From NCBI RefSeq assembly GCF_000469545.1, contig NZ_KI273072.1, positions 1 to 64,000 of the forward strand: a stretch of 64,000 bases of DNA, in the 5' to 3' direction. This DNA is from Mitsuokella sp. oral taxon 131 str. W9106 (GTDB taxonomy: Bacteria; Bacillota; Negativicutes; Selenomonadales; Selenomonadaceae). The translations under genes were made by a program, and so were the position numbers. Shown here in pieces: positions 21,517 to 51,421 of the stretch. Position 1 is the first letter of the stretch, and every line of letters begins with the position of its first letter. Under the pieces are notes generated by a model that did no database searches, was not told the DNA's origin, and worked only from the letters and a program-made list of their open reading frames with translations.

Positions 21517-22851
21517 ATGGCAATGGTAGTAAAGAACAACATGTCGGCAGTCAACACGCTGAACACGCTCAACAGGAACTCTTCGGCACTCGCAAAGAGC
21601 CTGCAGAAGGTTTCGTCCGGCATGAAGATCAACGGTGCTGCGGATGACGCTTCGGGCTATGCGATTTCCGAGCGCATGCGCGTCCAGATCCGCGGTCTCG
21701 ATCAGGCAAATGCCAATACGCAGAACGGCAGCAGCATGATGAAGGTCGCTGAGGGCGCTGTTTCGAGCACGGTCGAGATCCTGAAGACCCTCAAGGAGAA
21801 GGTCATCAACTCGGCCAACGACACGAACACGGATTCCGACCGTCAGCAGATCCAGAAGGAACTCAACCAGAGTGTCGACCAGATCGATGACAATGCGAAC
21901 GTCACGTACAACGGCAAGTACCTCGTCGATGGCTCGCACAACAACAAGGTTACGGCTACCTGCACGGCGCTGACGAACGAGAGCCTGTTCTCCTCGACGG
22001 TCGGCGGCTCAGCTCTCACGGATCTTCAGACGCGTACGGGCGAGAAGCTTAACATCCACAGCACGGATAATATTACGGTTTCCTTCGTCAAGCAGGGCCG
22101 TACGTACACGACGACGTATTCGGTCGGTTCGGCCAGCACGCTCGACTCAGTCATGACGGGTCTCTCGTCGGCAATGAACGGCACGGAGGTGGCCTCTACT
22201 GTGGGCAGTATGTCGATCACGGGCACGAACTCCTACATCGGCCTCGATACGGCTGGCAACTCGGTCTTCACGGCGGATAACGGCCGCGCGCTGACGATCA
22301 CGTCGAAGGGGTCGGGCACGGATTATCAGATCTCCGGCTTCACGATCAGCATCTCGAACAACCAAGGCGCGATCAACAAGTCCGCGAACGCTGCGCTCGA
22401 CAACTTCACGGAGTCCATCCGCGCACAGAACCAGTCGGACGACAACGCGATCGTCCTTCAGGTCGGCACGAAGGCGAACCAGGCGATCAAGGTCGGCATG
22501 ACGGATATGCGCTCGACGGCTCTTGGCCTCAAGGGCACGGACGGCAGCGTCCTGAACGTTTCCACGCAGGTCAAGTCGAATGCCGCGATCACGGTTCTCG
22601 ACAACGCCCTCCAGAAGGCGCTCGACCAGCAGACGACGATCGGTTCCGTCGAGAGCCGCCTCGAGTACACGAGCAGCAACCTCACGACGGCAAGCGAGAA
22701 CGTCCAGGCTTCTGAGTCGACGATTCGCGATGCGGATATGGCAAAGGAAATGACGAACTACACGAAGAACAACGTTCTTCTGCAGGCCGCTCAGTCCATG
22801 CTCGCACAGGCAAACCAGAGCAGCAGCTCGGTTCTCAGCCTTCTCCAGTAA
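21517..22851 (+). CDS. fliC: Flagellin
   Basis: 444 residues from ATG 21517, with GGGAGG upstream; the frame is open further left but lacks a ribosome site there. The N-terminal D0/D1 region (NTLNRNSSALAKSLQKVSSG, then GAADDASGYAISERMR) and the C-terminal helices (ending LAQANQSSSSVLSLLQ) are conserved flagellin. The middle (about 150-340) is Ser/Thr-rich and variable, the usual place for O-glycans. It is the last gene of the flagellar block and directly precedes the glycosyltransferase island, the arrangement expected for flagellin glycosylation. Control is probably by CsrA/FliW on its leader. Confidence 0.97.
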   Translation: MAMVVKNNMSAVNTLNTLNRNSSALAKSLQKVSSGMKINGAADDASGYAISERMRVQIRGLDQANANTQNGSSMMKVAEGAVSSTVEILKTLKEKVINSANDTNTDSDRQQIQKELNQSVDQIDDNANVTYNGKYLVDGSHNNKVTATCTALTNESLFSSTVGGSALTDLQTRTGEKLNIHSTDNITVSFVKQGRTYTTTYSVGSASTLDSVMTGLSSAMNGTEVASTVGSMSITGTNSYIGLDTAGNSVFTADNGRALTITSKGSGTDYQISGFTISISNNQGAINKSANAALDNFTESIRAQNQSDDNAIVLQVGTKANQAIKVGMTDMRSTALGLKGTDGSVLNVSTQVKSNAAITVLDNALQKALDQQTTIGSVESRLEYTSSNLTTASENVQASESTIRDADMAKEMTNYTKNNVLLQAAQSMLAQANQSSSSVLSLLQ

Positions 22852-22888
22852 TCTTTTTGCCGAATGGCTTAAGATTTGTGCTAGCAGG

Positions 22889-22918
22889 AAGCTCCCTCCT
22901 CGGAGGGGGCTTTTTTTT
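22889..22918 (+). terminator. Flagellin terminator
   Basis: GCTCCCTCC (22891-22899) pairs with GGAGGGGGC (22902-22910) and is followed by eight T. It should stop most flagellin transcripts before the glycosyltransferase genes. No strong promoter was found between here and 23011, so the island may depend on read-through or on an unrecognised promoter. Confidence 0.85.
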
Positions 22919-23010: not shown

Positions 23011-26000
23011 ATGAAACTCACGGCGTGCTACATGGTAAAAAACGAGGCGAGGAATCTGCCGCGCTCGCTCGCATCGATTCGGGGCGCATGGGACGAGCTC
23101 ATCGTCGTCGATACGGGGTCGACTGATGCGACGAAAGAGATCGCTGCATCCTTTGGCGCGCATGTCTTGGATGTTCCGTGGTGCGATGACTTTTCCGCGC
23201 CGCGCAATGCTGCGTTGGAGCAGGCACGAGGTGACTGGATCCTCTTTTTGGATGCAGATGAATCGTTTGAGAAGAGCAAGGATCTTCGTGCGCAACTGGA
23301 TGGATTGATGCAGGAATCCGTCGATGCGTGGCTTCTGCCGCTGAAAAATGTCGAAGAAGGCAGCGCAGGAGCTGCGGCGGGCAATGTGCAGTACCTGCTG
23401 CGTCTCTTTCGCAACCGTGCCGATCTTCGCTACAGGGGACGCATCCATGAAAATATTGTACGCAGGGATGCAGAACTTGTATGGAAATACGCGCCGCAGA
23501 AATTGCTCCTATTGCATACGGGCTACGCATCGCACATTTCGCGGGAAAAGGCGGAGCGCAATATACGCATTTTGCTGCAGGAAGCGAAGCGCGAAGGGGA
23601 TGCGGTGACGTATTCCGCTTACCTTGCAGATGCCTATCATGGACTTGGTGAATACGAACGCGCAAAATACTATGCCATGCTTGCCATTGATAACGGCGTC
23701 GTGACAATAGGCAACCGCACGGGACTGTATCATCTTGTGCAGGAGTGCATGCGCCATTTGGGTTATCCGTTGGAAGAGCAGCTCGCGTGGGCACAGAAGA
23801 CGAAAAAACAATTTCAAAACCATCCCGACAGCCTAGCGGAATGCGGCATCGTTTTGAGTTCGATGGGACGATTGGCGGAAGCGAAGAAGAATCTTTCGGC
23901 AGCGCTTCAGCACTATGAAGCGAAAGATTACGATAAAGGATACGGTTCGTTTTTTTATGATGGAATCGCCGAACAGATTGCGGATCGCCTAAAGACGATT
24001 GCCGTCATTGAAAAAGATGAAGCGGAAGCGGCGCACTGGGAAGCGCAAGCGATGCGGTATAAGAAAAGGCAGAGGGGAGAATGCGAATCCGTGCGGATTT
24101 CGGCTTGCTACATTGTCCGTGATGAGGCGGAAGAACTTCGCCGCTCCCTTGAAAGCGTTGCGGGCGAGGTCGATGATATCGTCCTCGTCCTGACGGGAAA
24201 GGACAGCGCGGCTGCGGAAGTGGGGCAGTCGTTCGGCGCGCGCTGCCAAACATTCGATTGGTGCGATGATTTTTCCGCCGCGCGCAATGCTGCGATAGAG
24301 GCGGCACGGGGCGACTGGATCGTCTTTCTCGATGCCGATGAGTATCTCTCTGAAAAAACGCGCGGCAATCTGCGCAGCATGATCGAGCGCGAAGCGGAGA
24401 AGGGGACGCAGCAGCTCCTTTTTCCCATCCGCAACATCGAGGCGGGGACGGGCGAGACGCTGCTCGTGAGCTGTGCGACGCGCGCCTTTGCGCGAAAGGA
24501 AGGGCGCGCTTACGTCGGACGCATCCACGAGGAGATCCGCGATGATGCAAAGGGAACGCCGCGTCTCGTCGAGCCGATGCGGCGTATCGCAGAAACGGAG
24601 CTTATGCTCATTCATACGGGGTACAGCGCGGCGCGCTCGAAAGAGAAAGCGGAGCGCAACTTGCGGATTCTCTTGAAGGAGCTCGTGACCGCAGCGTATC
24701 CGGAATCGCTTTACATGTATCTCGCCGAAGCCTACGACGGCATCGGCGATGCGGAGCATGCGATCTACTACGCGAAGCGCGACCTTGCGACGGGCGGGCA
24801 TAAGGGCGTCGCCTATGCGAGCCGTTCGCATCGCATCCTCCTGCGCCTTTACGCAGAATCACGGCAGTACGAGGCGCGCATGAAAGTCGCTGAGCAGGCG
24901 GTGCACGATTTCCCGGATCTGCCCGACTTTCATGCGGAGTACGCCGAGTGCCTTGCCGACGCGCTCGATTACGAAACGGCGCTTACGGAGTCGGAGCGGG
25001 CGGCGAAGCTCGCCGCAGCCTACCATGGAATCGAGCCGAGCATGCTGGACCCGGCAGCGCTTTCCGTGATGGAACGCCGCCGCGCCGTATGGCAGGCAAT
25101 CTGCGTGCGCGCAGCGGAGATGAAGCTCTTCGCCTGCCTCATCGTGCGCGATGCGGGGAAGGATTTCGCGATTTGGGCGGAAAATGCAAAAGCGTATGCG
25201 GACGCGCTCATCGTCGTCGATACGGGCTCGAAAGACGGCACGCGAGAGCGTGCGGTGGAAGCGGGCGCACGGGTCATAACCCTCGCTTGGCAGGACGATT
25301 TTGCGGCCGCGCGCAATACGGCGCTCGCAGCCGCAAAAGAGGCAGGGGCGGATTGGGTCACGGTGCTCGACGCCGATGAGACGTTTTTCGATCCTTCGAA
25401 GGTGCGCCTCTTTGCTGCGCGCACGGATCTCAGCATGGAGACGATCGATGCCGTGCAGCTTCCGATCCTTCACGTCGATGAAGACGATGGCGGGCGCGAA
25501 ATCAAGCGACAGCCCTACATCCGCCTGCTCCGCATGGGGCGCGGGCTATTCTACGAGGGGCGCGTCCACGAGCAGCTGAGGAAAGCGGGCGGCGAGCCCG
25601 CAATTTGGACGGAGGGGCGGCATCTTTCGATTCGCCATACGGGCTACAGCATGGGGCGCATCCGCGAAAAGGTGCGGCGCAATCTCGCACTCCTTCTGCA
25701 GGAAATCGCGGAGGGCGGGAAAAAGCCGTACCATGACCGCTACCTCGCCGACTGCTACTATGGGCTGGGCGACTATGAAAAAGCGCTCGCCCATGCGCGC
25801 GCGGCACGCAGGAGTCCTGTGCACTCGATTGGCGCGGAGAGCGATCTCTTCCGGCTCATGCTGGATGCGATGCGGGAACTTTCCGCACCGCGCACGGAGC
25901 AAGCTGCGCTTGCGCGCGAGGCGGTCGCCGCCTTCCCCCTCCTTCCCGACTTTTACGGCAGGCTCGGAATCCTGCTCGCGCCTTCTGCGCCCACAGAGGC

Positions 26001-26970
26001 GCTTCCGCTCCTGCAAAAGGCGATTGCCCTTGCGGAGACGGGAACGGACGGCAAGGAGGCAAGCCAGTTTGCAGACGAGGCGGCAGAGACCCATGCCGCG
26101 CTTGCTGCCTGCCACTTCGCGTGCGGCGCGCGGGAAGCGGCGGAGCGCGAGGCGCTCATGGCCATTTCGCTCGATGGGCATGAGGCGCAGGCGCTCGACG
26201 TGCTCTGCGCCCTGCATGCGGATGGGGGAGAGGGGGAACTTGCCGCCCTGCTGGTTTCAATCTTAGGCGAGGGAGATGCGGTGCGCCCCTACCTCCTTCG
26301 CTTCGCTGAGAGTTATGGGCATATCGCACTCTATCGCCAGCTTTCAAAGGATTGGCAGACGGAATGCGAAATCGGCGCGTTCTACGACAAGGCAAAAGAA
26401 GAAGAGGCGGCATCGCTTCTCGCGAAGCTTGCGCCGGAAGCAGCGCAGCATATTCGCGAAGCGCCTGCCGTGCTGCTCATGCTGGAGCGGCAGGAGACGC
26501 CAGAAGCGGCGCACCTCGCGCTGCGCCTTGCCGCACTCATGCCGCCGGCGATGCAGGCGCTTTGGCAGGCGTATCGCGGTGCGGATCTCCCGCATGGCGC
26601 ATGGGCGGATGGCTGGAATCTCTTTGCGCTTGCCTTCGTCCGCTGGGGCAGCGACGCACAGGTCGTGCGCGTCCTGCCGCTCGTGTCCGCGCTTGGCGAC
26701 GCGGAAAAAGCAGCATTCTTCCATCAGCTCGTCATGGGACGACGATTCGCGGCGGCGGTTTCATCGGCAGGGCTTGTCCCTGCTGATTCGCCTGCCGCGA
26801 ATGGCAAGTTTTGGTACGATCTAGGACGCGCGTTTTTCGCCATGGATGAGAGGAAGACGGCACGGGAGTGCTGGGAACGGGCAATCTCGCTCGACCCTGC
26901 GCACGGCGGCGCATGCGCTTATCTCGTTTGGACGGCGCAGGACGATGGGGAAAAGGAGGGACGCGCATGA
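23011..26970 (+). CDS. Triple GT2 glycosyltransferase with TPRs
   Basis: 1319 residues with three repeats of the same unit. GT2 domains start at residues 1, 361 and 704, each opening [MV][KR][LI]xAC and carrying a nucleotide-binding loop, W-x-DDFxAxRN and a LDADE metal motif; TPR-like helices follow each. Unit 1 has VVDTGSTDAT and unit 3 VVDTGSKDGT, but unit 2 reads VLTGKDSAAA and may be impaired. This resembles the SunS-like family of TPR-linked GT2 enzymes, some of which glycosylate peptides. It is the first gene after flagellin, so flagellin glycosylation is the natural guess. Unit 2 begins at a GTG preceded by AGGGGAG, as though once a separate gene. Confidence 0.85.
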   Translation: MKLTACYMVKNEARNLPRSLASIRGAWDELIVVDTGSTDATKEIAASFGAHVLDVPWCDDFSAPRNAALEQARGDWILFLDADESFEKSKDLRAQLDGLMQESVDAWLLPLKNVEEGSAGAAAGNVQYLLRLFRNRADLRYRGRIHENIVRRDAELVWKYAPQKLLLLHTGYASHISREKAERNIRILLQEAKREGDAVTYSAYLADAYHGLGEYERAKYYAMLAIDNGVVTIGNRTGLYHLVQECMRHLGYPLEEQLAWAQKTKKQFQNHPDSLAECGIVLSSMGRLAEAKKNLSAALQHYEAKDYDKGYGSFFYDGIAEQIADRLKTIAVIEKDEAEAAHWEAQAMRYKKRQRGECESVRISACYIVRDEAEELRRSLESVAGEVDDIVLVLTGKDSAAAEVGQSFGARCQTFDWCDDFSAARNAAIEAARGDWIVFLDADEYLSEKTRGNLRSMIEREAEKGTQQLLFPIRNIEAGTGETLLVSCATRAFARKEGRAYVGRIHEEIRDDAKGTPRLVEPMRRIAETELMLIHTGYSAARSKEKAERNLRILLKELVTAAYPESLYMYLAEAYDGIGDAEHAIYYAKRDLATGGHKGVAYASRSHRILLRLYAESRQYEARMKVAEQAVHDFPDLPDFHAEYAECLADALDYETALTESERAAKLAAAYHGIEPSMLDPAALSVMERRRAVWQAICVRAAEMKLFACLIVRDAGKDFAIWAENAKAYADALIVVDTGSKDGTRERAVEAGARVITLAWQDDFAAARNTALAAAKEAGADWVTVLDADETFFDPSKVRLFAARTDLSMETIDAVQLPILHVDEDDGGREIKRQPYIRLLRMGRGLFYEGRVHEQLRKAGGEPAIWTEGRHLSIRHTGYSMGRIREKVRRNLALLLQEIAEGGKKPYHDRYLADCYYGLGDYEKALAHARAARRSPVHSIGAESDLFRLMLDAMRELSAPRTEQAALAREAVAAFPLLPDFYGRLGILLAPSAPTEALPLLQKAIALAETGTDGKEASQFADEAAETHAALAACHFACGAREAAEREALMAISLDGHEAQALDVLCALHADGGEGELAALLVSILGEGDAVRPYLLRFAESYGHIALYRQLSKDWQTECEIGAFYDKAKEEEAASLLAKLAPEAAQHIREAPAVLLMLERQETPEAAHLALRLAALMPPAMQALWQAYRGADLPHGAWADGWNLFALAFVRWGSDAQVVRVLPLVSALGDAEKAAFFHQLVMGRRFAAAVSSAGLVPADSPAANGKFWYDLGRAFFAMDERKTARECWERAISLDPAHGGACAYLVWTAQDDGEKEGRA

Positions 26971-28442
26971 GGATCACGGCTTGCTGCATCGCAAAAAATG
27001 AGGCGGCGAACTTGCCGCAATGGCTCGCGAGCGTGCGCGGCTACGCCGATGCCATCGTCGTCGTCGACACGGGCTCAACCGATGCGACGGCGGAGATCGC
27101 GCGCGCGGGCGGCGCGCGCGTCCTCTCGTTTTCGTGGACGGGCGACTTCGCGGCGGCGAAGAACTATGCGATCGAGGCGTGCGAGGGGGACTGGATCGCC
27201 TTTCTCGATGCCGATGAATTTTTCCGCGAGGAGGATGCGCCCACGGTGCGCGTGCTTGTCGCACGGTACGACGCGGAGGAGCACGTCGCGGGCCTTGCGA
27301 TGCGCCTCGTGAACATCGACCGCGACACGGGCGAGAACATGGGCACGTCGATGGTCGCGACGCGCCTCTTCCGAAACCGCCCGTGGATCCGTTACGTCGG
27401 CACCGTGCACGAGAGTCTGCGCAACCTGCGCCCCGCCTTGCCGCAGGAAATGAAGTATGTGGAATCGCCCGTCATCTACCATACGGGCTACTCGCGCGCG
27501 ATCATTGCGGAAAAGTCGGCGCGCGACCTTGCGATGCTGCTCGCGCGGCAGGAGAAGGAAGGCGTGCAGCCGCTCGACGACTTCCACCTCGCCGACTGTT
27601 ACTATTCGCTGAAGGACTACGAAAAGGCGGCGCATCATGCGGAGCGCGCGGCGCACGACACGCATCAGCCCGTCGGCATGGAGCAGCGCCCCTATATGGT
27701 CTGGGCGCAGTCGCTCATGCTGCTCGGACGGCCCGGCGCGGAAGTGCGCGCGGTGCTCCACGAGGCGGAGCGCCGCTACCCAGAGGCCGCAGCGTTCTTC
27801 CAACTGGACGGCATCGCCTGCCGCAGGATGGGCGACTTCCTCGCGGCGGAGCAGGCGTTCCTTTGCGCGCTCTCACTTACGGCAGAGCACCCAGACGACG
27901 CGGCGGCTCGGCTCCTGCCGCTGACGTATGAGCATCTGGGGGAGATCGCGCTTAGGAAGGGCGACAAGGAAACGGCGCGCGCGCTTCTCGCCGAGGGGCT
28001 TCGCCTCCAGGTGCGCCACGGGCACATGCTCCAACTGCTCGCCGAAGCGTGCGAGGGGCTGGCGGACGCGGATGTGATCGCGCTCCTGAATGGGCTTTTT
28101 GACAAGGCGCGCGATGCAGGCTACCTTGCGCAGATGCTCGCTGGGACGCGGCTCGGCCGCGCCGCGCTCTACTATGACCACGCGGCAGGCGGCGTGCTGG
28201 GGAGGATGGACCGTCTCCTTTTGGCAGGGCGGCCAGAGCCTGCGGCGGCGCAGCTCGTCGAGGAATTGGAGCGGACCTTTGTCCTCGCGGACGCGGCGCT
28301 CCATAGCGCGGGAACGGATGCGGCGCATGGCGTATGGCAGGTGCTCATGCCAAACGAGATCGCGGACGGTGCGAAGGAGAACGAACGGCTCAGAAAGCGA
28401 ATGGAGCGCACGCGTCTTTGGTACTGCAGCAAAAATGCGTAA
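26967..28442 (+). CDS. GT2 glycosyltransferase with TPRs (fourth SunS-like unit)
   Basis: 491 residues from ATG 26967, overlapping the previous stop (ATGA) and following AAAGGAGGG. The opening MRITACCIAKNEAANLPQWL, VVVDTGSTDATAEIA and FLDADEFF make it a close paralogue of the units in the preceding gene. TPR-like helices occupy residues 190-400. It is probably cytosolic and adds a sugar to the same glycan or protein. Its free-standing state beside a three-unit fusion shows the module is being multiplied here. Confidence 0.85.
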   Translation: MRITACCIAKNEAANLPQWLASVRGYADAIVVVDTGSTDATAEIARAGGARVLSFSWTGDFAAAKNYAIEACEGDWIAFLDADEFFREEDAPTVRVLVARYDAEEHVAGLAMRLVNIDRDTGENMGTSMVATRLFRNRPWIRYVGTVHESLRNLRPALPQEMKYVESPVIYHTGYSRAIIAEKSARDLAMLLARQEKEGVQPLDDFHLADCYYSLKDYEKAAHHAERAAHDTHQPVGMEQRPYMVWAQSLMLLGRPGAEVRAVLHEAERRYPEAAAFFQLDGIACRRMGDFLAAEQAFLCALSLTAEHPDDAAARLLPLTYEHLGEIALRKGDKETARALLAEGLRLQVRHGHMLQLLAEACEGLADADVIALLNGLFDKARDAGYLAQMLAGTRLGRAALYYDHAAGGVLGRMDRLLLAGRPEPAAAQLVEELERTFVLADAALHSAGTDAAHGVWQVLMPNEIADGAKENERLRKRMERTRLWYCSKNA

Positions 28443-28473: not shown

Positions 28474-31400
28474 ATGAAAGCAGAGAAGGAGCTCGCAGAA
28501 GTCTATGCGGCGGCGTACCGCGCGCTCGAATCGCACGATTACGAGGCGGCGCGCATAGCTGCCGGGAAGCTTGCCGCACGCGCGCCGGTCGAGGCGGCAG
28601 GCCTTTCGTGCGCGATCGGGATTGAGGCGGGCGAGGCGGAGGCGGCGGAGGCGGCGTGGGAAAAACTTGCAGCCCTCGCGCCGCAGGACGTCTACACGAA
28701 ATTCCTCGCCGCCCGCATCGCCTTTCTGCGTGAGGATTACGCGCGCGCGCGGGATATCTTGCTGCCCATTCGCGCGGAGAAGGCGAACGATGACTATCAG
28801 GAGCGGATATGGAACCTCTACGGACAGTGCGCGCGCATCTTAGGCGATCCAAAGGAGGCGGGGCGTGCCTACCTCCACGCGGCGCGCGCGGCGACGTCCT
28901 TGGCGTTTGCCGCGACGGAGTACAGCGACTATCTGTTCAATCTCCACTACCTCCCCACGAGCCTTGCGGAGCAGAGACGGGCGGCAGAGGGATACGGCAG
29001 GCTCTTTCATGGCCTGCCGCAGTTTTTCCACGCCTATCCGAAGGAAAAGGAGAAACTGCGCATCGGCTACATCTCGGGCGACCTGCGCAACCACGTCGTC
29101 CTGCGCTTTGTCTATGCGTTCTTTTCGCACTGGGACAAGGAAAAATTCGAGGTATATGCCTACGCGAACAACGAGGAGGACGCCTGCAGCCGCCATCTGC
29201 AAAAGCGCGTCACGGCATGGCGCAATATCCTAGGGCTGCCGGCAGAGCAGGCGGCAAGCCAGATCTACGAGGACCGAATCGATATCCTCGTTGACTTTTC
29301 CGGGCATACGAAGGACAACTGCCTGCCTGTGCTTGCCTATCGTCCGGCGCCCGTGCAGATCTCGGGCATCGGCTACTTCGCCTCGACGGGGCTTCCCACC
29401 GTCGACTACTTCCTTTCCGATACGACGCTCGCGGCAGGAGAGGCGGAGCGCGCGTTTACGGAAGAGCTTCTCGTCCTTCCCGCGAGCCATTTCTGCTACA
29501 CGCCGCTGGAGGATCCCGCATTCCTTCCCGCCGCGCCTTCCGCGAAAAAAGGCTATATCACGTTCGGCAGTTTCAACAACTTTGCGAAGGTCAATGAAGA
29601 AGTGCTCGGCGCGTGGCGCGAGATCCTCGCGCGCGTGCCGGATTCGCGCCTCTTCCTCAAGACGGACGCGTTCGATGCGCCCGCGAGCCGCGAAGCGGCG
29701 CTCGCGAAAATCGAGGCGGCTGGCATCGACCTCGCGCGCGTCGATTGGCGCGGCGCGACGCGCGACTACCTCGGCGCGTACCGCGCAGTCGACATCGCGC
29801 TCGATCCATTTCCGTACCCCGGCGGCGGCACGACGTGCGATGCGCTCTACATGGGCGTCCCCGTCGTGACGAAGACCGGCGAGAGCCTCGGCGAGCGCTT
29901 CGGCGCGAGCATTCTCGTAAATCTCGGCCTTTCGGAGCTCGTCGCAGGGAGCACGGAGGACTACGTCCGGCGCGCCGTGGCGCTCGCGGGCGACGCGGAG
30001 ACGCTCTCGCTCCTGCACGCGAATCTGCGGAGGATGATGGAGCGCTCGCCGCTCATGGCGCACGAGCTCTACGCGTCTTCCATCGCGTCCGCCTATGCGG
30101 GCGTCTGGACGGCGTACTGCGGGAAGGCGAAGGCACCGAGCCGTGCAGAAATGCGCACGCTCGCGCAGCGGATGCGGTCGTTTCAGCAGAGGGGAGACAT
30201 ACGGCAGGCGGCAGCAGCCGCCTCGCATATCGTCGCGGGAGAGCCGGCCGATGCATCGCTCCTGAAGGAGGCGGCATTTGCCGCGATGGACGCGGGCGAC
30301 TCCTCCACGCTTCAAGCGGCGGCAGCCGCGCTTTGCAGCCATGTGCCGAAGAGCGGCATTGCGGCGCTCGCCGAAGCCTTTTCCGCCTCGCTTCGCGGCA
30401 GGCACTCCGCGGCGATTGCAAAGGCGAAGCAGGCGATAACGGCGCATGACCTGCCGAAGGAGGAGCGCGGCATCGCCTATCACCTGGAGGCCGAGAGCTA
30501 CAAGAAGCTCGGCCGGCGCGACAAAGCGGCAAGAGCCTACCTCGCATCGAGCGAGTTGAAGACGGCCGCACAGGGGAAGCTTGCGGACTACAGCAATTAT
30601 CTCTTGAACCTCAGCTACGGCACGCATGCGGAAGAAGACCTTTTGCGGGCGGCAAAGGGCTACGGTTCGCTGCTCGCCGGCATACAGCCGCTCACGCATG
30701 CGAAGGCGGCGCATCGCCATGCGCGCCTTCGTGTCGGCTACATCTCGCCCGACTTCTGCCGCCACGTCGTCGCCTGCTTTGCGCTGCCGTTTTTCCGCCA
30801 TGCGGATCGGGCGGTCTTCGAGGTATACGGCTACATGCTCGGCGCGGCAGATGCGGAGACACGGGAATTTGCGGCGCTTGCCGACCACTTTTGCGACCTT
30901 TCGGCGCTCCCGCCGAAGCGGGCGGCGCAGCGGATCGATGCAGACGAGATCGACATCCTGGTCGACCTTTCGGGGCATACGGGCGGGAATGCGCTGCCGA
31001 TCCTCGCCTATAAGCCCGCGCCCATCTTGGTTTCGGGCATCGGCTACTTCCGTACGACGGGGCTGCCCGCCGTCGACTATTTCCTCACGGACGAGCACCT
31101 TGCGCCTGCAGGCGAGGAGGCGTATTTCACGGAGAAGCTCCTGCGGCTTCCCGAAAGCCATTGGTGCTACGAGCCGCTCGCGGGCTCGCCGCCGACGGCA
31201 CCTGCGCCGTTCCTAAGAAATGGCTATGTGACGTTCGGCGCGCTCGCCCATTTCGACAAGGTCACGGACGAAATGCTCGCGCTTTGGGGCAAGATCCTCG
31301 ATGCCGTGCCAGACAGCCGCCTTTACCTAAAGAGCGCCGTCATGGACGATGCCGCACGGCGCGCGCGCGTGGAAGGACGTCTCGCGCAGGCTGGCATCGA

Positions 31401-38659: not shown

Positions 38660-38745
38660 GCACAGATGCAAAAATCGTTTTAGTGTCAATAAGGAGAATC
38701 GTTTTGGGAAGAGCAGGCAGGAAACGAAGAAGGAGAAAGAAAAAA

Positions 38746-39711: not shown

Positions 39712-40203
39712 GCCGCGCGTGAAGACGCCGTACGTCTACACGGATTCCGACGTCGTGCCGCAGGCGTGCTGCCCAAAGGACGACGGGCGATCTTATGGTT
39801 CCTACGATGCGGATGTCTCCGCTAAGATATTGATCTCGGTCGAAAAGTACTTTGTGCGATGGCAGGTCGATGTGTGGCAGGACGGCGTGCAGGTCTTTTC
39901 CCATACGTTTGATCCGACGGGGGCGCGTGTTCACTTCGTTTTCGCGAGCCGCTGTATCGGCGATACGATCGCCTGCATTCCCTACTTAGGCGTGTTCTGT
40001 GCGCGCTACGGCGTGCGGGCATCCTACGCATGGCGTGCCACGGCTGTTTCAACGACCCGCGCTGGTACTGGTCGGAAGATCCGTGCCATTTGGGAAGGGA
40101 AGAACCGAACCGCCTGATGGAATGCCAGCGCACGATTACGCCACGCATGGTCATGGAAGCGGTCACGCGCCTCGTGCATGACCGAGAGAGGGGGAGCGTA
40201 TGA
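39704..40203 (+). pseudogene. Remnant of a TibC/Aah-like heptosyltransferase joined to a glycosyltransferase scrap
   Basis: Frame one (39704-40117) starts with a scrap nearly identical to the neighbouring glycosyltransferase (TPYVYTDSDVVP). It continues into VDVWQDGVQVFSHTFDPTGA and SRCIGDTIACIPYLGVF, which resembles the N-terminus of autotransporter O-heptosyltransferases of the Aah/TibC type. The C-terminal end of such a protein then appears in another frame (ATG 40030 to TGA 40203): CFNDPRWYWSEDPCHLG and ECQRTITPRMVMEAVTRL. The roughly 250 central residues are missing and the frame breaks near 40020. I read this as an internally deleted, frame-shifted gene. A functional 57-codon downstream peptide is unlikely. 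The family assignment is from memory of conserved ends. Confidence 0.65.
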
Positions 40204-41708: not shown

Positions 41709-41773
41709 GAACAGAGGATGCGCCGAGGAAGGCGGCAGTCGTGCTCAGCCTAGTTCGCAGGGAGGTGCGTTTT

Positions 41774-43004: not shown

Positions 43005-44162
43005 GTGCGGCATTCACTCGGCGATTTGAAGCGTGCATACGAGGCGGCGGATGCCGCCTTTGACACGGAAGGCCGCGCGGCGGCAATGGCGGAAGCCTTT
43101 CGCATCATCTGCGGGACACCTTCCCTTGAAACGAGCGAAGCGGGGGCGTTTTTCGCGCGAAAACCGAAAATTTTCCTGCTCGCTGCCATTTCCTTTCTCG
43201 TGCGGGAGCGGCCAAAGGAAGCGCTTTATTACCTTGGGCTGCTGGATGAGGGCGTACTTGCGAGGCCCGCATGGTTCCCCATGTATGGCTACTACAAGGC
43301 ATGGGGCTATGACCTGCTCGGTGATTCGGCACGTGCAAAGGCGTATCTCATGCACCATCTGGCGCAGTTCAAGGGCGATGAAATGGCGCGTCAGAACCTC
43401 CTCGCGCTCGGCGCAGGAGCGCCGCGCAGGTGGTTCGATGCCTCTCCGCTCACATCTGTGACGGGATCGTATGCCGACATACCGATCTTTATCAATTCGC
43501 GCGACCGCCTTGGCACTCTGCAGGATCTCATACTGCGCCTTTTGGAGCTTGGGCAGCGGACGGTCATCGTACTTGACAACGGCTCGACGTATGCGCCGCT
43601 CCTGCACTACTACAGGGAGATCGAGAAACGCGGCATTCGCGTCGTCCGCCTGCCGAATCTCGGCCATCGCGCCCTTTGGGACAGCGGCGTGCTGCGTACG
43701 CTTGGCGTAACGGGCGCGTATGCCTATACGGACTCGGACATCGCATTGGGCGAGGGCTTTCCGAAGGATTTCATGCGGCGGCTGCTCCTGTGCCTTTCGA
43801 AGCATCCTTATCTTGTGAAAGCGGGGCTTGCGCTTGAATACCGCGATATCACATTCTATGACCGCGAGAAGATTCAGGCCATCGAATCGAAGCTGTACGA
43901 GATACCGCTTGCGAAAGATGCGTATTTTGCCGATGTCGATACGACGTTTGCCGTCTACCGCGGAAGCATCCGGCACTATGTGCGCGGCCCATCGGCACGT
44001 CTCGCAGGCGCGCTCACGGCACGCCACCTGCCTTGGTACTACGACGAGACGAACCGCCCCGCTGATGAGACGTACTACATGGAGCATGCGGAGGCATACT
44101 CCTCGATGAAGGGATTTCAGCAGATGAGGCAGCAGCAAGAACAGAAAGGAACAGGGACATGA
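43005..44162 (+). CDS. TPR plus GT-A glycosyltransferase (second of the pair)
   Basis: 385 residues with a GTG start at 43005 placed by AAGGAGGTG. It is a paralogue of the gene at 37403: DIPIFINSRDR, RTVIVLDNGSTYAPLL, AYAYTDSDIALGEGF and ARHLPWYY come in the same order, while the N-terminal helical region is different. The acidic motif TDSD fits a metal-dependent GT-A site. It overlaps the next gene by four bases (ATGA). No better function can be given. Confidence 0.75.
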   Translation: MRHSLGDLKRAYEAADAAFDTEGRAAAMAEAFRIICGTPSLETSEAGAFFARKPKIFLLAAISFLVRERPKEALYYLGLLDEGVLARPAWFPMYGYYKAWGYDLLGDSARAKAYLMHHLAQFKGDEMARQNLLALGAGAPRRWFDASPLTSVTGSYADIPIFINSRDRLGTLQDLILRLLELGQRTVIVLDNGSTYAPLLHYYREIEKRGIRVVRLPNLGHRALWDSGVLRTLGVTGAYAYTDSDIALGEGFPKDFMRRLLLCLSKHPYLVKAGLALEYRDITFYDREKIQAIESKLYEIPLAKDAYFADVDTTFAVYRGSIRHYVRGPSARLAGALTARHLPWYYDETNRPADETYYMEHAEAYSSMKGFQQMRQQQEQKGTGT

Positions 44163-45328
44163 CACAGGCGGCAGCGAGCAGGGGAGACGGCGTGACGAGC
44201 ATCGTCATCCTAAGCTACAACACGCTCGATTACACGCGGCTCTGCATCGAGAGCATCCGTACGTATACGGAGGCGGGGACGTATGAGATCCTCGTCGTCG
44301 ACAACGGCTCGCATGATGGATCGGCTGAATGGCTCAAGGAACAGGCAGATATCCTGCTCTTCTGCAATGCGGAGAACCGCGGTTTCCCCGGCGGATGCAA
44401 TCAGGGGATGCGGGCGGCGATGGGCGACAGCCTGCTGCTCTTGAACAGCGATACGATCGTCACGCCGAACTGGCTCGGCAATATGCGCCGTGCGCTCTTT
44501 TCCGCGCCCGATATCGGCGCGGTCGGCTGCGTGACGAATCGCTGCTCGAACGAGCAGAAGATTCCCGCTCCGTACGAAAGTATTGAAGAGATGGAAACGT
44601 TTGCGGAAGCGTTCAACGTATCCGACCCCGCGAAATGGCACCCGTGGTTCATGCTCGTCGGGTTCTGCTTTCTTATGAAGCGTGAGGCCTACATCGAGGT
44701 CGGCGGCTTTGACGAACGCTTCAGCCCCGGCAACTACGAGGACGATGATCTTTCTGTCCGCCTGCGCATGGCGGGTTACGATCTCCTGCTTTTGCAGGAT
44801 ACGTTTATCCATCATTTCGGCAGCGCGTCGTTTGGCAGGAAACAGAACGTGAGCGAGGCGGAGCTGCAGCGCAAACAAGAGGCCTACGCTGCCCTTTTAC
44901 AGCGCAATGCGGAAAAATTCGTTCGGAAGTGGGGCGTCGACCCGAAGTCCTACCGCACGCGCTATACGGTGGAAGCGGTACTGCCCGACGAACTGCCGCA
45001 GGGCGCGCGCGTCACGCTCGTCGGCTTTTCGCGCGGCATGGAGCTCTACCACCTCGGCGCGCATTGCCCCGAGGCGACCGTCGTGGGCGTCATCGTCGGC
45101 GCGCCGCCGGAAGTCCCCCTGTCTAGGCGCATTTCCGTCCGTCGCGTCGAGCAGTTCGCGGATGCGCCGGATGCCATTGAACCCGCCCAAGACTACATCA
45201 TCGTGCGCGACGCGCTGAATGGCGATGCGGAATCCTTGTGCAGGCGGCTCTGCGGCAGGCTGAGGATCGGCGGCAAGCTGCTCGTGCCCAACGGCGGCGG
45301 CATGCGCGAGTTCAGCCGCACGAGCTGA
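44159..45328 (+). CDS. GT2 glycosyltransferase (rhamnosyltransferase-like)
   Basis: 389 residues. Classical GT2 domain at 13-240: SIVILSYNTLDYTRLCIESI, ILVVDNGSHDGSAEWL, ENRGFPGGCNQGM and LLLLNSDT, then FDERFSPGNYEDDDLSVRLR as the acceptor-side motif. This pattern is common in rhamnosyl- and related transferases. Residues 275-385 are an added domain of unknown function (DYIIVRDALNGDAE). It is part of the overlapping gene chain. Confidence 0.85.
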   Translation: MTQAAASRGDGVTSIVILSYNTLDYTRLCIESIRTYTEAGTYEILVVDNGSHDGSAEWLKEQADILLFCNAENRGFPGGCNQGMRAAMGDSLLLLNSDTIVTPNWLGNMRRALFSAPDIGAVGCVTNRCSNEQKIPAPYESIEEMETFAEAFNVSDPAKWHPWFMLVGFCFLMKREAYIEVGGFDERFSPGNYEDDDLSVRLRMAGYDLLLLQDTFIHHFGSASFGRKQNVSEAELQRKQEAYAALLQRNAEKFVRKWGVDPKSYRTRYTVEAVLPDELPQGARVTLVGFSRGMELYHLGAHCPEATVVGVIVGAPPEVPLSRRISVRRVEQFADAPDAIEPAQDYIIVRDALNGDAESLCRRLCGRLRIGGKLLVPNGGGMREFSRTS

Positions 45329-45344: not shown

Positions 45345-46733
45345 ATGGGGTCGAATTGGATGGATTTGGCGCAAGGCGCGGAAAAGAAGGGGCGGTTCGG
45401 CCTTGCCGAGCTGCTGTTTCAGCGCGCGGAGGCCTCGGCGGACGATGCGGCCTACCGCGCCTTTGATGCGGCGCAGCGCGCGGGGGCATCGGCTATCCTC
45501 GCAGCCATCTACAGCGAATGTGCGTCGTGCATGGACGGCTCGAACCTCGTTTTCCTCCTGCGGCGCACGGCGATGCTTGCCGCGCTCTTGGAGCAGAATT
45601 TTGACTCTCGTGCAGGCGCGGCCGTTGACGCGGTTTCAGCTGCGCTGTACGAGGAGCTCCAACGCACGGAGCGCCTCGTATTTTGCCTCGCCTTTCAGCA
45701 GGGCTGGTCGCTCTTAGCGGACGAGACGGCGCAGTTTCCAGACGACGAGCAGGTGCATATCCGCGCCCTCTGCAGGTGCGCCATGGGCGCGGTGCGGGGC
45801 ATCGCGGAGCCGCCGCTCGTGAGCGTGCTGATCCCCGCCTACAACCTTCCCGATCTATTCGCGCGGACAATGCGAAGCGCGGCGATCCAAGACTGGCCGA
45901 ATCTTGAGATCCTCGTCGCGGACAACAGTACGAACGAGGAGACGGCGGCGGAGATGGAGCGCTACGCGGACGACCCGCGCGTGCGCTACATCCGCAACCG
46001 CACGGCAAGGACGAAGGCGGAGAACTTCGCCGTATTCGAGCATGAGGCGCGCGGCGAATACCTCCAATGGCTTATGCAGGACGACATCCTGCTGCCACAG
46101 AAGATCACCTGCATGGCGCGGGCGCTCATGGATAATCCGCAGATTACGCTCGTCGGCTCGCAGCGTGCCTTCATCGACGCACGCGGAATCCGATGGCCCG
46201 AGGAGCGGATGCAGAAGGTTCGCCCCGACTTCGGCATCACGGACGCGTACGCGAGCTACGACGGGCACACCATCGTCCGTGCCATGCTTACGCGCCTGCA
46301 GAACCTTATCGGCGAGCCGCCTTCTGTGCTGTTCCGAAGACGCGATCTGATCCACCACTACTGGCGTGCGGAGTCGCGCGGGTATCGCGTGATCTCCGAT
46401 GTCGTCATGTGGATGGAGCTGCTTGAAAAGGGAAACCTGCTCATGTTCCGCGATGCGCTCTCTTGCTACCGTCGGCATGGAAAACAGGAAGGACAACGAA
46501 GCGATATACTGATCGAGAGCCGTCTCGAATGGTGTCGCTTGCTCGACGCGTATCGCGCGCGTGAGAACTTCTTTGAGGCAGCCGAGGTGCAGAGCGCATA
46601 CAGGAAACTCATGGCAGATTATGAAAGTGGCATGAAAAAAGTCAGCCAAAGGATCGGCGGCCCGCTCAGCGCGGCGTACGAAAAGCGAATGAGCGAAATA
46701 CGGCAAATACTTGCTGTTCTGGAATCAAAATGA
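45345..46733 (+). CDS. GT2 glycosyltransferase with an N-terminal helical domain
   Basis: 462 residues. Residues 1-150 are helical and of TPR-like character. The GT2 domain begins near 160 (PLVSVLIPAYNLPDLFARTM), with ILVADNSTNEETA, a QWLMQDDILLPQKI metal motif and a C-terminal LSCYRRHGKQE. The metal motif and following residues match those of the genes at 48166 and 49805, so these three form one subfamily. Ribosome site GAGGGAGGAA before ATG 45345. Confidence 0.82.
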   Translation: MGSNWMDLAQGAEKKGRFGLAELLFQRAEASADDAAYRAFDAAQRAGASAILAAIYSECASCMDGSNLVFLLRRTAMLAALLEQNFDSRAGAAVDAVSAALYEELQRTERLVFCLAFQQGWSLLADETAQFPDDEQVHIRALCRCAMGAVRGIAEPPLVSVLIPAYNLPDLFARTMRSAAIQDWPNLEILVADNSTNEETAAEMERYADDPRVRYIRNRTARTKAENFAVFEHEARGEYLQWLMQDDILLPQKITCMARALMDNPQITLVGSQRAFIDARGIRWPEERMQKVRPDFGITDAYASYDGHTIVRAMLTRLQNLIGEPPSVLFRRRDLIHHYWRAESRGYRVISDVVMWMELLEKGNLLMFRDALSCYRRHGKQEGQRSDILIESRLEWCRLLDAYRARENFFEAAEVQSAYRKLMADYESGMKKVSQRIGGPLSAAYEKRMSEIRQILAVLESK

Positions 46734-46753
46734 ATGGAAAAGAGGAAACGATT

Positions 46754-48136
46754 ATGATCAGCATGATTCTTGCTGTACATAATAATTTGTCGTATACGCA
46801 GCATTGCGTGGCCGTGCTGCAGGATAATTTCGCGCCCGATGAATACGAGCTCATCGTCGTCGATGACGGCTCTGCGGACGGTACGGCAGAATGGCTCAAG
46901 GGAAATGGCGTGCAGTTCCTTCGGCATGAAGAGGCGAGAGGGATCGCTGCCGCGCGCAATCTCGGTGCATCGGCGGCAAAGGGCGACGCGTTTCTCTTCT
47001 TGGAAGCGGACGTGTGGCTCACGCATGCAGCGCTTGAGGAAATGGTTGCCTGTGTGAACCGTGATGCGCGCGTCGGCATAGTAGGCTGCCTGTCGAACTG
47101 CGATGAATACGGCTGCGGCTTGTTCCAGGATGCAGCAGATTATGAAGGCTATGAGGGATATAAGGCCTTTGCGCAGAGGGTGGCAAATGATGCGCGACAA
47201 AGCGCCAAGCGGGATTGTCCCGCCATATTTGCAACTGCTTTTGCCATGCTCATCACGAGACCGGCATGGTTTGCTCTTGGCGGATTTGACGAAAGCGCGT
47301 GCGGCAAGTCGGTGGGAGCAGACGTCGATTTCTCACTCCGTGCTTGGCAGGCAGGCTATCGCGTGGTACGTGCAAAGGGAGCTTATGTGCACCGTATACG
47401 TCCCGTATGGAATGGGACTGCAGAAGGGCTCGAGCAGGAAACGATGTGCGGAAGGATGTGGTTCAAGCAAAAGTGGGGCTTTGAAATCAACTATTCGTGC
47501 AACGTCCGCACGGAGCTTTTGCAGTTTGTCCAGCCAAAGCAGGCGAGTCCTTCCGTGCTTGAAGTCGGCTGCGCCTGCGGCGGCAATTTCATGCTGCTTC
47601 GCGAAAAATTCCCGGATATCACGTGCTGCGGCATTGAACTCGATGACCGGTCTGCTGCGGTCGCGAATTGTTTTGGGCAGATCTTCAATATGGACGTCGA
47701 GACGCTCGATATGCCGGCGTGGGAAAATCAGTTTGATGCGGTCATTCTGGGCGATGTCCTTGAACACCTGTATGATCCGTGGCAGACGGTGCGCCACATG
47801 TACCGTGTGACGCGTCCTGGCGGGCGCATCATCGTGAGTGTTCCGAACATCACACATATCTCGATTTTCGATATGATGTTAAGCGGTCAGTGGAAATATG
47901 CGGCTGCGGGTATCCTCGATCATACGCATCTTCGGTTCTTTACGCAAGCGACGGCAAAAGAAATGGTCGAATCCGCTGGCTACCGTGTCGTGACGCTCGC
48001 GTCCGTCTCGGTTATCGAAGGAGAGGAACAAGAGCGGCTCAAGGAAATACTGCGGCCGCTTCTTCGGGCGGATGCCCCTTCGTATCAGCTCGACGCGTAC
48101 CAGTGGGTCATCGTCGGCGAGAAGGCAGAGGCATAA
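46754..48136 (+). CDS. GT2 glycosyltransferase fused to a methyltransferase
   Basis: 460 residues from ATG 46754 (site GAGGAAA); ATG 46730 overlapping the previous stop is an alternative. Residues 1-245 are GT2: MISMILAVHNNLSYTQHCVA, IVVDDGSADGTAEWL and a GGFDESACGKSVGADVDFSL acceptor motif. Residues about 265-455 are a SAM-dependent methyltransferase of the UbiG type (VLEVGCACGG, ILGDVLEHLYDPW, TRPGGRIIVSVPN). It could add a sugar and methylate it. O-methylated sugars are known in flagellin glycans, which fits the context. Confidence 0.85.
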   Translation: MISMILAVHNNLSYTQHCVAVLQDNFAPDEYELIVVDDGSADGTAEWLKGNGVQFLRHEEARGIAAARNLGASAAKGDAFLFLEADVWLTHAALEEMVACVNRDARVGIVGCLSNCDEYGCGLFQDAADYEGYEGYKAFAQRVANDARQSAKRDCPAIFATAFAMLITRPAWFALGGFDESACGKSVGADVDFSLRAWQAGYRVVRAKGAYVHRIRPVWNGTAEGLEQETMCGRMWFKQKWGFEINYSCNVRTELLQFVQPKQASPSVLEVGCACGGNFMLLREKFPDITCCGIELDDRSAAVANCFGQIFNMDVETLDMPAWENQFDAVILGDVLEHLYDPWQTVRHMYRVTRPGGRIIVSVPNITHISIFDMMLSGQWKYAAAGILDHTHLRFFTQATAKEMVESAGYRVVTLASVSVIEGEEQERLKEILRPLLRADAPSYQLDAYQWVIVGEKAEA

Positions 48137-48165
48137 GGCCTTGCACGCGTGAGAGGAGGTGCTGC

Positions 48166-49770
48166 ATGGAAGCGAATCGAATCGCGATTTTTGCGCAGTG
48201 CGGAGCGGACGGCACGTCCAGGATGCGCGAATACGTTTCTGCGCTTCGCGTGCCCGAGGGCTGCGAGGTGGACTTCGAGGAGGTTCCGTTTACGGAGCAT
48301 ATCGCAGCAGCGTATCAAAATGCCATGAAGGCATCTTCGGCGAAGTATAAGATTTACCTGACCGAAGGAAGCGTGCTGCTCCATGAAGACATTCTCGCCG
48401 ACATGCTCGCGGTATTCCGGTCTGACGATTCCATAGGTCTCATGGGGATCCTCGGCGTGAAGCAGCTTTCGGCGAGTGCCCTCTTTGCGCGCTCTTTCCC
48501 GATTGAGGGCGGACGCGTGCTCTTTTGGGACGGCACGCATTTCGATGGCGTCCCGCCGGCGGCAGATGTGACGGACGTGATGGCGATCAGCCGCGAATGC
48601 ATTGCGACACAGTACGACGTGGCGTGGCGCGCCGATCTCTTTGCGAAGGATTGCTTTTGGGCGGAGGCGCAGTGTGCAGAGTTTCGCCGCAGGGGCTATC
48701 GGACGGTAATCCCTCGTCAGGAAGAGGAATGGCTGCTTGCGGCGGGAAAGTCGCCGGACGCTGACGAACCGAGCCGCAGGACATTCCTCGATGCGTATTC
48801 GGCGGGGCTTTATCCGCTCGTTTCGATCATCATTCCGACATTCGAGCGCCCGCATTACTTCCGTCTCGCACTCGAAAGCGTGCTTGCACAGACGTATCGG
48901 AATCTCGATATTTTCATCACGGACAATTCGCATGACGAGAAAACGGCAAATATGATGGCGCGCGACTTTGCAGGCGATCCGCGTATCCATTATGAACATC
49001 ATGCGGACTTTGACGCGGCCGGAAATTGGATGCGCGCAATGTCTTATGACAATCCGAATGCCGCCTACGTCAACTGGCTTATGGATGACGATCTCTTCCT
49101 GCCGCAGAAGATTGAATGCATGATCGAGTATTTCCTGCAAAACCCGGATGTCAGTCTCGTGACGTCGTATCGTCAGCGCATTGATGGCGAAGGGAAGCTC
49201 CTCGTGGATTCTCCAGACACGGAACCGTTCGTTTTCTCGACGCAGAAGCTGGACGGCAAAATGGTCGGACGCGAGATGCTTCGCCGCTGCACGAATTTCA
49301 TTGGCGAGCCGACGACAGCCCTCATAAAGAAAGCGTGCATGAACGGCACGCGTCTTGGCTGGACGGGGCGGGAAGGGAAGTATCTCATCTCGGATTTTCC
49401 GACATGGCTCAATCAGATGGAACACGGGAATCTCGTTTACATACGAGAGGCGCTCAGTCAGTTCCGATATCATGACGGCAACGATTCAGCGCGTCCGCAA
49501 ACGCTTCTTTGCGGTTCGATCTGCTGGGCCATGATGATCCAGGAGGCCATTGGACGCGGTGTTTTTTTGGCCGATGAGACGGTTCGGCGTGAGGCCATTG
49601 TAAAATGGCTTTACGACGCTTCGTTTACGATGAAACTCATGACGCCGTATCCGCAGGTATGGGCAATGGAAATATGCAAGGACTATTACACCGTTTTTTC
49701 CGCGATGGCGGATGCGCTGGGCCATGGCTTGCAGCCGCATTTTGAAATGGACACGCGCGTAGATCTATGA
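48166..49770 (+). CDS. GT2 glycosyltransferase with an N-terminal Rossmann-like domain (copy A)
   Basis: 534 residues from ATG 48166 (GAGAGGAGGTG). Residues 1-205 form a second domain (ANRIAIFAQCGADGTSRMRE, KYKIYLTEGSVLLHEDIL) of a kind seen in some glycan enzymes. The GT2 domain starts near 217: PLVSIIIPTFERPHYFRLAL, NLDIFITDNSHDEKTA and MDDDLFLPQKIECM. It is a tandem duplicate of the next gene. The frame is open well to the left, but only this ATG has a ribosome site. Confidence 0.82.
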   Translation: MEANRIAIFAQCGADGTSRMREYVSALRVPEGCEVDFEEVPFTEHIAAAYQNAMKASSAKYKIYLTEGSVLLHEDILADMLAVFRSDDSIGLMGILGVKQLSASALFARSFPIEGGRVLFWDGTHFDGVPPAADVTDVMAISRECIATQYDVAWRADLFAKDCFWAEAQCAEFRRRGYRTVIPRQEEEWLLAAGKSPDADEPSRRTFLDAYSAGLYPLVSIIIPTFERPHYFRLALESVLAQTYRNLDIFITDNSHDEKTANMMARDFAGDPRIHYEHHADFDAAGNWMRAMSYDNPNAAYVNWLMDDDLFLPQKIECMIEYFLQNPDVSLVTSYRQRIDGEGKLLVDSPDTEPFVFSTQKLDGKMVGREMLRRCTNFIGEPTTALIKKACMNGTRLGWTGREGKYLISDFPTWLNQMEHGNLVYIREALSQFRYHDGNDSARPQTLLCGSICWAMMIQEAIGRGVFLADETVRREAIVKWLYDASFTMKLMTPYPQVWAMEICKDYYTVFSAMADALGHGLQPHFEMDTRVDL

Positions 49771-49804
49771 GGCTCGCAGGGATTTGAAGAAGGGGGGGCT
49801 TGTC

Positions 49805-51421
49805 GTGCAGGAACATCGGATTGCCATTTTCGCGCGCTGCGGCATGGACGGCACAGCCGCTATGCATTCATATATTGGGGCGCTCACCGTGCCGAAGGGA
49901 TACGAGACGGAGTTCATCGAACTTCCGCAGGGGGGGAATGTCGCCGCCGCATACCAGCATGCCATGGAGGCGAGTGACGCAAGGTATAAGATCTACTTGG
50001 ATGAAGGAAACATCATCCTAAAAGAGGATTTGCTCGTGACCCTGCTGCATATTTTCGGGACGGACGAGACGATTGGGCTCATCGGCCTCGTCGGCACGGA
50101 GCAGCTTGCGGCAAATGGGATCTTTGCCCAATCGCCGCACGTCGTCGGAAAGCTGCTCTATCCGAACGGACAGCGCTTTGACGGCGATGAACAGGAAAAC
50201 GATCTCGCGGATGTGATGACGGTCACGGGCAATCTTATCGCGACGCAGTACGATGTGCCATGGCGCTCCGATCTCTTCCCAATCGATTCCTTTTGGGCGG
50301 AGTCGCAGTGTGCCGAATTTCGGCGCAGGGGCTATCGATGCGTCGTTCCGCAGCAGGAAAAGGAATGGCTGCTCACGGGCGATAAACGGGCGCCGATCCA
50401 TGAAGCGAGCCGCCAGGCTTTCCTCGATACGTATTCGGCAGAACTCTTCCCGCTCGTCTCGATCATCATTCCGACGTACGAACGCCTGCATTTTTTCCGC
50501 CTCGCGCTCGAAAGCGTGCTCGCACAGACGTATCGTAATCTCGACATCTTTGTCACGGACAACTCGCATAATACCGAGACGGCGGATATGATGGCACGCG
50601 ATTTTGCAGACGACTCACGCATCCATTACGAGCATCATCCGGAATTCGATGCGGCGGGCAACTGGGCGCGCGCGATGGCGTACGATCACCCGAATGCCGT
50701 CTACGTCAACTGGCTCATGGACGACGATCTCTTCCTGCCGCAGAAGATCGAGAAGATGGTCGGCTGCTTCTTTGCAAACCCCGATCTCAGCATCGTGACC
50801 TCGTACCGCCTCGCAATCGATGCCGAGGGGAATCCGCTCCCCGATACGCCGCTCAACGCATCCCCGTTCACGCACACGACGAAGCTCAGCGGCGCATCGG
50901 CGGGACGCACGATGCTCATGGAACAGGTCAATTTCATCGGCGAGCCGACAACGGCACTCGTGCGCAAGGACTTTTTGCTCGACGGCCATCGGCTCGGTTG
51001 GACGGGGCGCGAAGGCAAGTATTTAATCTCGGATTTTCCGACGTGGCTGCGGTTGCTTGCGGCGGGCAATCTGCTCTACCTCGTCGAACCACTGAGCTGC
51101 TTTCGCCACCATGCGGGGCAGGATCAGCTGTCGAGCGAGCGCATGATCGCAGGTCGCATCTGCTGGGCACTTTCCATCGCGCACGCCATCGAGACGGGCG
51201 CGTTTTTGGAAGACGACGGCGCACGGCGCACGGCGATCCTGCAGTGGATCCACGGCTGCACGGTGGACGTTGGCTCCTATAAAGACAAGGAGGACGTGTG
51301 GGGGAGCGAGTCGTGCCGAGATCTCATCGGCGTGCTGCAGGACATGGCGGCGGCACTTTCGGGCGGGCATAGTCCCGCATTCTCTTTCGTGGCGCGACTC
51401 GGGGGGGAAAAAATGGCATGA
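49805..51421 (+). CDS. GT2 glycosyltransferase with an N-terminal Rossmann-like domain (copy B)
   Basis: 538 residues. GTG 49805 is chosen because it aligns with the start of copy A (QEHRIAIFARCG against EANRIAIFAQCG) and follows a purine-rich site whose core is a run of seven G (49792-49798); TTG 49784 is open upstream. The same order of domains as copy A: PLVSIIIPTYERLHFFRLAL near 217 and MDDDLFLPQKIEKM. The gene ends in G7A6 (51401-51413), overlapping the next start. The pair probably add two similar sugars or act on different acceptors. Confidence 0.82.
   Translation: MQEHRIAIFARCGMDGTAAMHSYIGALTVPKGYETEFIELPQGGNVAAAYQHAMEASDARYKIYLDEGNIILKEDLLVTLLHIFGTDETIGLIGLVGTEQLAANGIFAQSPHVVGKLLYPNGQRFDGDEQENDLADVMTVTGNLIATQYDVPWRSDLFPIDSFWAESQCAEFRRRGYRCVVPQQEKEWLLTGDKRAPIHEASRQAFLDTYSAELFPLVSIIIPTYERLHFFRLALESVLAQTYRNLDIFVTDNSHNTETADMMARDFADDSRIHYEHHPEFDAAGNWARAMAYDHPNAVYVNWLMDDDLFLPQKIEKMVGCFFANPDLSIVTSYRLAIDAEGNPLPDTPLNASPFTHTTKLSGASAGRTMLMEQVNFIGEPTTALVRKDFLLDGHRLGWTGREGKYLISDFPTWLRLLAAGNLLYLVEPLSCFRHHAGQDQLSSERMIAGRICWALSIAHAIETGAFLEDDGARRTAILQWIHGCTVDVGSYKDKEDVWGSESCRDLIGVLQDMAAALSGGHSPAFSFVARLGGEKMA

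Follow-up and report, generated by a model that had tools for sequence, protein, structure and literature searches.

Directly behind the flagellin gene fliC of Mitsuokella sp. oral taxon 131 str. W9106 lies a long array of glycosyltransferase (GT) genes, which raises the question of which molecule these enzymes modify and whether their number reflects a long or variable glycan, as an earlier note had proposed. We addressed this in a 64-kb window at the start of contig C23, within a genome of 2.31 Mb.

Layout and modular core of the island

Upstream of fliC, the window encodes FlgK, an FlgL-like protein, FliW, FliD, FliS and a weak match to FliT. The island behind this main fliC spans ~60 kb and ends beyond the window, near contig position 83063. 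Between 23011 and 51421 all main genes lie on the + strand; overlapping starts, previously ascribed to most of them, occur at 7 of 15 junctions, i.e. about half, and the other gaps are at most 83 bp. The flagellin gene, identified by its Flagellin_N and Flagellin_C domains, and the conserved core of the array follow each other on the same strand as originally described:

21517..22851 (+): fliC, flagellin, the presumed acceptor (Flagellin_N and Flagellin_C matches)
22895..22918 (+): terminator-like hairpin with a T8 run, in the interval between fliC and the array
23011..26970 (+): S1-S2-S3, 1319-aa fusion of three GmaR-like GT2 modules, their C-terminal regions TPR-like (Pfam; GmaR 3.3e-30)
26967..28442 (+): S4, single GmaR-like GT2 module with a TPR-like tail (Pfam; GmaR 1.7e-23)
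28474..33474 (+): Oa-Ob-Oc, three fused SPINDLY-like GT41 modules, 1666 aa (PF13844, catalytic residues kept)
33471..35930 (+): fusion of a degenerate GT41 module (33471-~34280) with an intact one of Oc type
35908..37401 (+): Od, single GT41 module (Pfam, trees, order)

The hairpin lies within the 159 bp that separate fliC from the array, and since most relatives have comparable hairpins 3' of fliC, the flagellin gene probably forms a transcript of its own. Outside the island, a fusion of a hexapeptide acyltransferase with a GT2 domain is located upstream of the flagellar genes (2758-4725). An assignment of 17522-17875 to CsrA was dropped for want of Pfam support, and a PHROGs search yielded no match.

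All four GT2 modules that had been described as SunS-like are present, with intact DxD, HE and HTGY motifs in each, but they are better classified as GmaR-like. Their best solved relative is GmaR of Listeria (1.7e-23 and 3.3e-30, compared with ~1e-14 for SunS), and the model of the SunS peptide S-glycosyltransferase (TIGR04195) reached 145.2 bits over three stretches, far below its equivalog cut-off of 350. GmaR transfers GlcNAc onto Listeria flagellin, which its TPR region has been proposed to bind (PMC9638930). The array modules share with GmaR of Listeria monocytogenes the succession of a GT2 domain and TPRs, the latter with weak Pfam matches here; GmaR, however, consists of one module plus an antirepressor domain, whereas the array contains four modules, three of them fused in one chain.

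Of the six GT41 modules counted previously, five are intact, with PF13844 matches and conserved catalytic and donor-site residues, whereas the sixth (33471-~34280) is degenerate, every checked catalytic and donor-binding residue being gone. A further intact module that has kept these residues is encoded outside the window (contig 65773-67251). The third module of 28474-33474 matches SPINDLY (6e-78) and TtOGT (7e-61), both ahead of XcOGT and human OGT. As in SPINDLY and OGT, a TPR-like region is combined with a GT41 catalytic domain that has the SPINDLY-type donor tyrosine, but the array carries several modules per chain and is situated beside flagellin. Tyr744 of SPINDLY shapes donor choice and is also found in XcOGT and TtOGT (PMC9715652). 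Each of the island's six intact GT41 modules has a tyrosine at the equivalent position, and this one residue, shared with XcOGT and TtOGT, suggests that the donor may be a smaller sugar rather than GlcNAc. One GT41 gene is located off the island (G000:C9:92970-94064), and relatives also have single GT41 genes of ~575-590 aa.

Downstream genes and the length of the glycan

The core is followed by a series of more heterogeneous genes:

37373..38659 (+): GTx1, putative GT-A-type transferase with a DSD motif and a TPR-like start (without a family model)
38743..39711 (+): conserved non-catalytic TPR protein (Pfam: TPR, without a GT domain)
39704..40117 (+): remnant of a TibC/Aah-type heptosyltransferase (TIGR04414, 38.7 bits)
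40200..41708 (+): methyltransferase and GT-B fusion (Pfam)
41741..42973 (+): GT-B, Glyco_trans_1_2 (Pfam)
43005..44162 (+): GTx2, paralogue of GTx1 (alignment to GTx1)
44159..45328 (+): GT2 (Pfam)
45345..46733 (+): GT2 with an N-terminal extension (Pfam)
46730..48136 (+): GT2 and methyltransferase fusion (Pfam)
48160..49770 (+): Glyco_tranf_2_5 and GT2 fusion, copy a (Pfam)
49784..51421 (+): Glyco_tranf_2_5 and GT2 fusion, copy b (Pfam)

Pfam domains thus bear out both the further GT2 and GT-B enzymes and the methyltransferase fusions (40200-41708 and 46730-48136) noted earlier. The Pfam search gave no GT domain match for GTx1 and GTx2, which share 37% identity and the DSD motif in an alignment and are regarded as putative transferases; a GT-A fold of GTx2 is a guess from this motif, as its AlphaFold2 model is of low confidence (mean pLDDT 45.5). 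The model of the TPR protein, homologues of which are encoded in the loci of 21 out of 33 relatives, comprises two confidently predicted TPR bundles and a low-confidence linker, and matches just generic TPR structures with low TM-scores. Full-length-looking relatives of the heptosyltransferase remnant (385-410 aa) occur elsewhere. In the part of PMC5207246 considered here, the type B locus of C. difficile is described as containing GT2-family genes 3' of fliC, one of which, GT2, is a GT2-methyltransferase fusion with the same domain pair as 46730-48136; that locus differs in having three GTs, with no GT41 reported in this part, and its GT2 and GT3 elongate the flagellin glycan.

The remainder of the window encodes a putative sugar and acyl block:

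51418..52056 (+): NeuD/VioB-type sugar N-acyltransferase (TIGR03570, 158.3 bits, cut-off 160.8)
52068..52292 (+): tentative acyl-carrier-protein-like small ORF with a WDSL motif (without a Pfam match)
52289..55132 (+): KSIII - SDR - KSIII, acyl group (Pfam, NCBIfam)
55143..56243 (+): FkbM methyltransferase (Pfam)
56256..56738 (+): FabA/FabZ-like dehydratase (Pfam)
56813..58612 (+): thiamine-diphosphate enzyme, acetolactate-synthase-like (Pfam; NCBIfam below cut-off)
58623..59678 (+): NeuB-family synthase (under both equivalog cut-offs, NeuB and PseI)
59675..59917 (+): second acyl-carrier-like ORF, WDSV motif (without a Pfam match)
59895..63077 (+): metallo-hydrolase, AMP ligase and LuxE acyl-protein synthetase (Pfam)

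The true start of the first KSIII lies near 52289, and a LuxC-like gene begins at 63058 after LuxE. Beyond the window, the island contains two DegT aminotransferases, one more GT41, LicA/B/C-like genes and more GTs. Genes for an NTP-transferase, a choline kinase and an EamA permease (contig 73880-80031) look like LicC, LicA and LicB and adjoin a hexapeptide-glycerophosphotransferase fusion; given these Lic-like genes, choline phosphate on a glycan is possible.

The viosamine island of Pseudomonas syringae and the PAK island resemble this block in gene types, namely an aminotransferase, a NeuD/VioB acyltransferase, KSIII, a ketoreductase, an ACP and a methyltransferase (PMC3927599). All of these types are present here, the ACPs being recognized by motif only and the aminotransferase, DesI-like but below its cut-off, being located outside the window. 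The likeness is one of parts list: the genes sit behind the GT core and the Mitsuokella island adds an extra KSIII, a dehydratase, the thiamine-diphosphate enzyme, NeuB and LuxE/LuxC. By analogy with this parts list, an N-acylated amino sugar would be a fair guess for a cap. As the genes at 51418-63077 have few or no homologues in relatives' loci, the link of the 51-63 kb block to flagellin is one of position and orientation, and genes such as the homologues of NeuB and LicA/B/C might contribute to a different surface molecule.

Do these genes build one long oligosaccharide, stepwise, on flagellin? Many GTs are gathered in a single cluster, and the non-core GT2, GT-B, GTx and Glyco_tranf_2_5 enzymes could elongate a glycan, comparable to GT2 and GT3 in the cited part of the C. 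difficile work. However, the majority of array modules are members of families in which the characterized enzymes act on polypeptides (GmaR, SPINDLY/OGT), and the best comparator considered here, P. syringae, has a flagellin glycan that is a trisaccharide (PMC3927599); we therefore consider a long oligosaccharide improbable. Variability stands in part: phase variation was rejected, as neither a G8 tract nor a long simple repeat occurs in the array, whereas variation between species does exist, in the downstream genes. For the core, neither a long nor a variable glycan is supported.

Flagellin as the presumed acceptor

The comparison covered 60 relatives, 36 of them from the family. GT41 genes were identified in all 33 family relatives with flagellin and in none of the 3 without it (G009, G012 and G023), where GmaR-like matches are also absent or weak; the flagellin-less side of this co-occurrence consists of three related genomes. 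In most of some thirty relatives' loci, fliC is followed by a GT2 array, a GT41 array and usually a TPR protein. This linkage to fliC is conserved over genera and absent from the three genomes without flagellin, while in G008 and G036 the array lies at another place than fliC. The same kind of array is found in Selenomonas ruminantium S137, with a flagellin that is 78% identical. A second flagellin of W9106 (C17:12896-14218; 59% identical) has no array beside it. It adjoins an open frame of 2299 aa that looks like a filamentous-haemagglutinin-type adhesin, and frames of ~3200 aa with the same adhesin-like look follow fliC in G008 and G036.

The central 218 residues of the fliC product include 61 Ser/Thr (28%). 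In passages of PMC7142665 and PMC13339959 that cite Rath 2018, two properties of S. sputigena flagellin are reported, O-glycosylation at several sites and rhamnose-linked glycans, respectively. In W9106, RmlC (dTDP-rhamnose) is encoded on C17, which is only suggestive of dTDP-rhamnose as a donor and gives no pointer to the transferase that would use it. GDP-fucose was set aside as a donor, as no GMD match exceeded the cut-off, which is likewise only suggestive, and Maf-type transfer of nonulosonates to flagellin was ruled out, as no match to Maf (PF01973) was found in the genome.

No TM-like protein is encoded in the window cluster, and among the cluster proteins up to contig position 83063 the LicB-like permease outside the window alone has TM-like segments. 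Wzx/Wzy-type parts are absent from the locus, the initiating transferase (PF02397) being encoded on C25 and the flippase (PF13440) on C25 and C3, and an assignment as a polymer locus was rejected for this reason. By its description, FlmG of Caulobacter is of the same TPR-GT protein type, although it is a single module and uses pseudaminic acid; its TPR domain binds flagellin, which its GT domain modifies in the cytoplasm (PMC7591256). The apparently soluble nature of the proteins, the location of export parts on other contigs and the likeness to GmaR, SPINDLY and FlmG fit a modification of flagellin in the cytoplasm before export.

The cluster might instead produce another surface polymer such as LPS O-antigen or capsule, with fliC adjacent by chance. 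NeuB, LicA/B/C-like and glycerophosphotransferase-like genes, all of which are present, are known from LPS and capsule loci of other bacteria, but the window cluster lacks an initiating transferase, a flippase and membrane proteins, the fliC linkage has been kept over genera and GT41 is missing where flagellin is, so that we regard this as very unlikely. Flagellin as the acceptor is well supported by comparative sequence evidence. The proposal that the array is the genetic basis of flagellin O-glycosylation is accordingly strengthened, as an inference, by the fliC linkage, the co-occurrence of flagellin and GT41 in the family, best matches to GmaR and SPINDLY/OGT without membrane or export parts, and the S. 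sputigena reports as cited above.

On this reading, the locus belongs to an established kind of island. Islands of Enterobacteriaceae also have GTs beside fliC (GT2 or GT41), methyltransferase fusions and NeuD-type genes, but measure 2.4-23 kb, have one to three GTs that all come from the same family and are poorly conserved between species (PMC4875605), whereas the island described here spans ~60 kb, has ~18 GT units in the window, combines GT2 with GT41 and maintains its core order. What is unusual is the collinear polymodular core.

Conservation of module order and a proposed division of labour

In phylogenetic trees the modules group by position and not by genome, with high support for S2 (99/98), S3 (100/98), S4 (100/99), Oa (95/95), Ob (97/95) and Od (100/99) while S1 (97/81) and Oc (88/96) are less well supported; the backbones are open and Oe does not form a resolved group. 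In class models that left out whichever genome was being scored, the modules follow one another as S1-S2-S3, S4, Oa-Ob-Oc, Od, Oe, and 461 of 489 module pairs in 34 loci agree with this succession. In 17 loci outside model training, agreement was 95.7% (180/188 pairs). When S modules were shuffled among themselves and O modules likewise, none of 2000 shuffles reached the observed value, also in the loci outside training. The core order that is collinear across genera is S1-S2-S3, S4, Oa-Ob-Oc, Oc, Od. Common descent explains this order; the point is that each module stayed distinct. Pairwise identities of 29-35% among the four GT2 modules and 37-49% among the intact GT41 modules are low and mark the modules as old duplicates.

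The layout of 33471-35930, a degenerate module fused to one of Oc type, also occurs in G010 and G021, where modules with the same type of residue loss are found at the same place in open frames. Dead GT41 modules with an open frame thus occupy an identical position in three genera; as they are very divergent, with about 27% identity where they align, we make no claim that the dead state is of common descent. In G028 (C5, L067-L069), four successive two-module GT41 genes of Oa-Ob type represent a lineage-specific amplification.

That the repeats are redundant products of recent amplification or decay without distinct functions would suit the dead GT41 module, the heptosyltransferase remnant and the fourfold amplification in G028, but is very unlikely given modules that are only 29-49% identical with catalytic residues kept, are older than the genera, have conserved their order and include dead copies in open frames whose position is shared by three genera.

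We consider it likely that the locus is a flagellin glycosylation island with a peptide-acceptor priming set, a division of labour among its modules and downstream extension and capping. The cluster proteins look soluble, and their probable place of action is the cytoplasm, where flagellin would be modified prior to its export. Four GmaR-like GT2 and five SPINDLY-like GT41 modules would start glycans on Ser/Thr of flagellin, and each array position would have kept a job of its own over time, in the simplest case one particular site or sugar; the sugars and this division of labour are what we infer from the sequences. TPR regions, perhaps together with the TPR protein at 38743-39711 and the dead GT41 module, may hold flagellin, and the downstream GTs, methyltransferases and acyl-amino-sugar genes would lengthen or cap the glycans differently from lineage to lineage. 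More speculatively, and in our view rather unlikely, the core could resemble an assembly line: the order and fusion of its modules would mirror a set or succession of flagellin sites that is fixed, and the conserved dead GT41 module would act as a holder.

As a flagellin glycosylation island, the array supplies candidate genes for the multi-site flagellin O-glycans of S. sputigena. With about nine to ten peptide-acceptor modules in a preserved order, compared with one to three transferases in the islands of Enterobacteriaceae (PMC4875605), it would be a natural system for studying how sugars are assigned to sites on one protein, and its core also bears on why transferase domains fuse.
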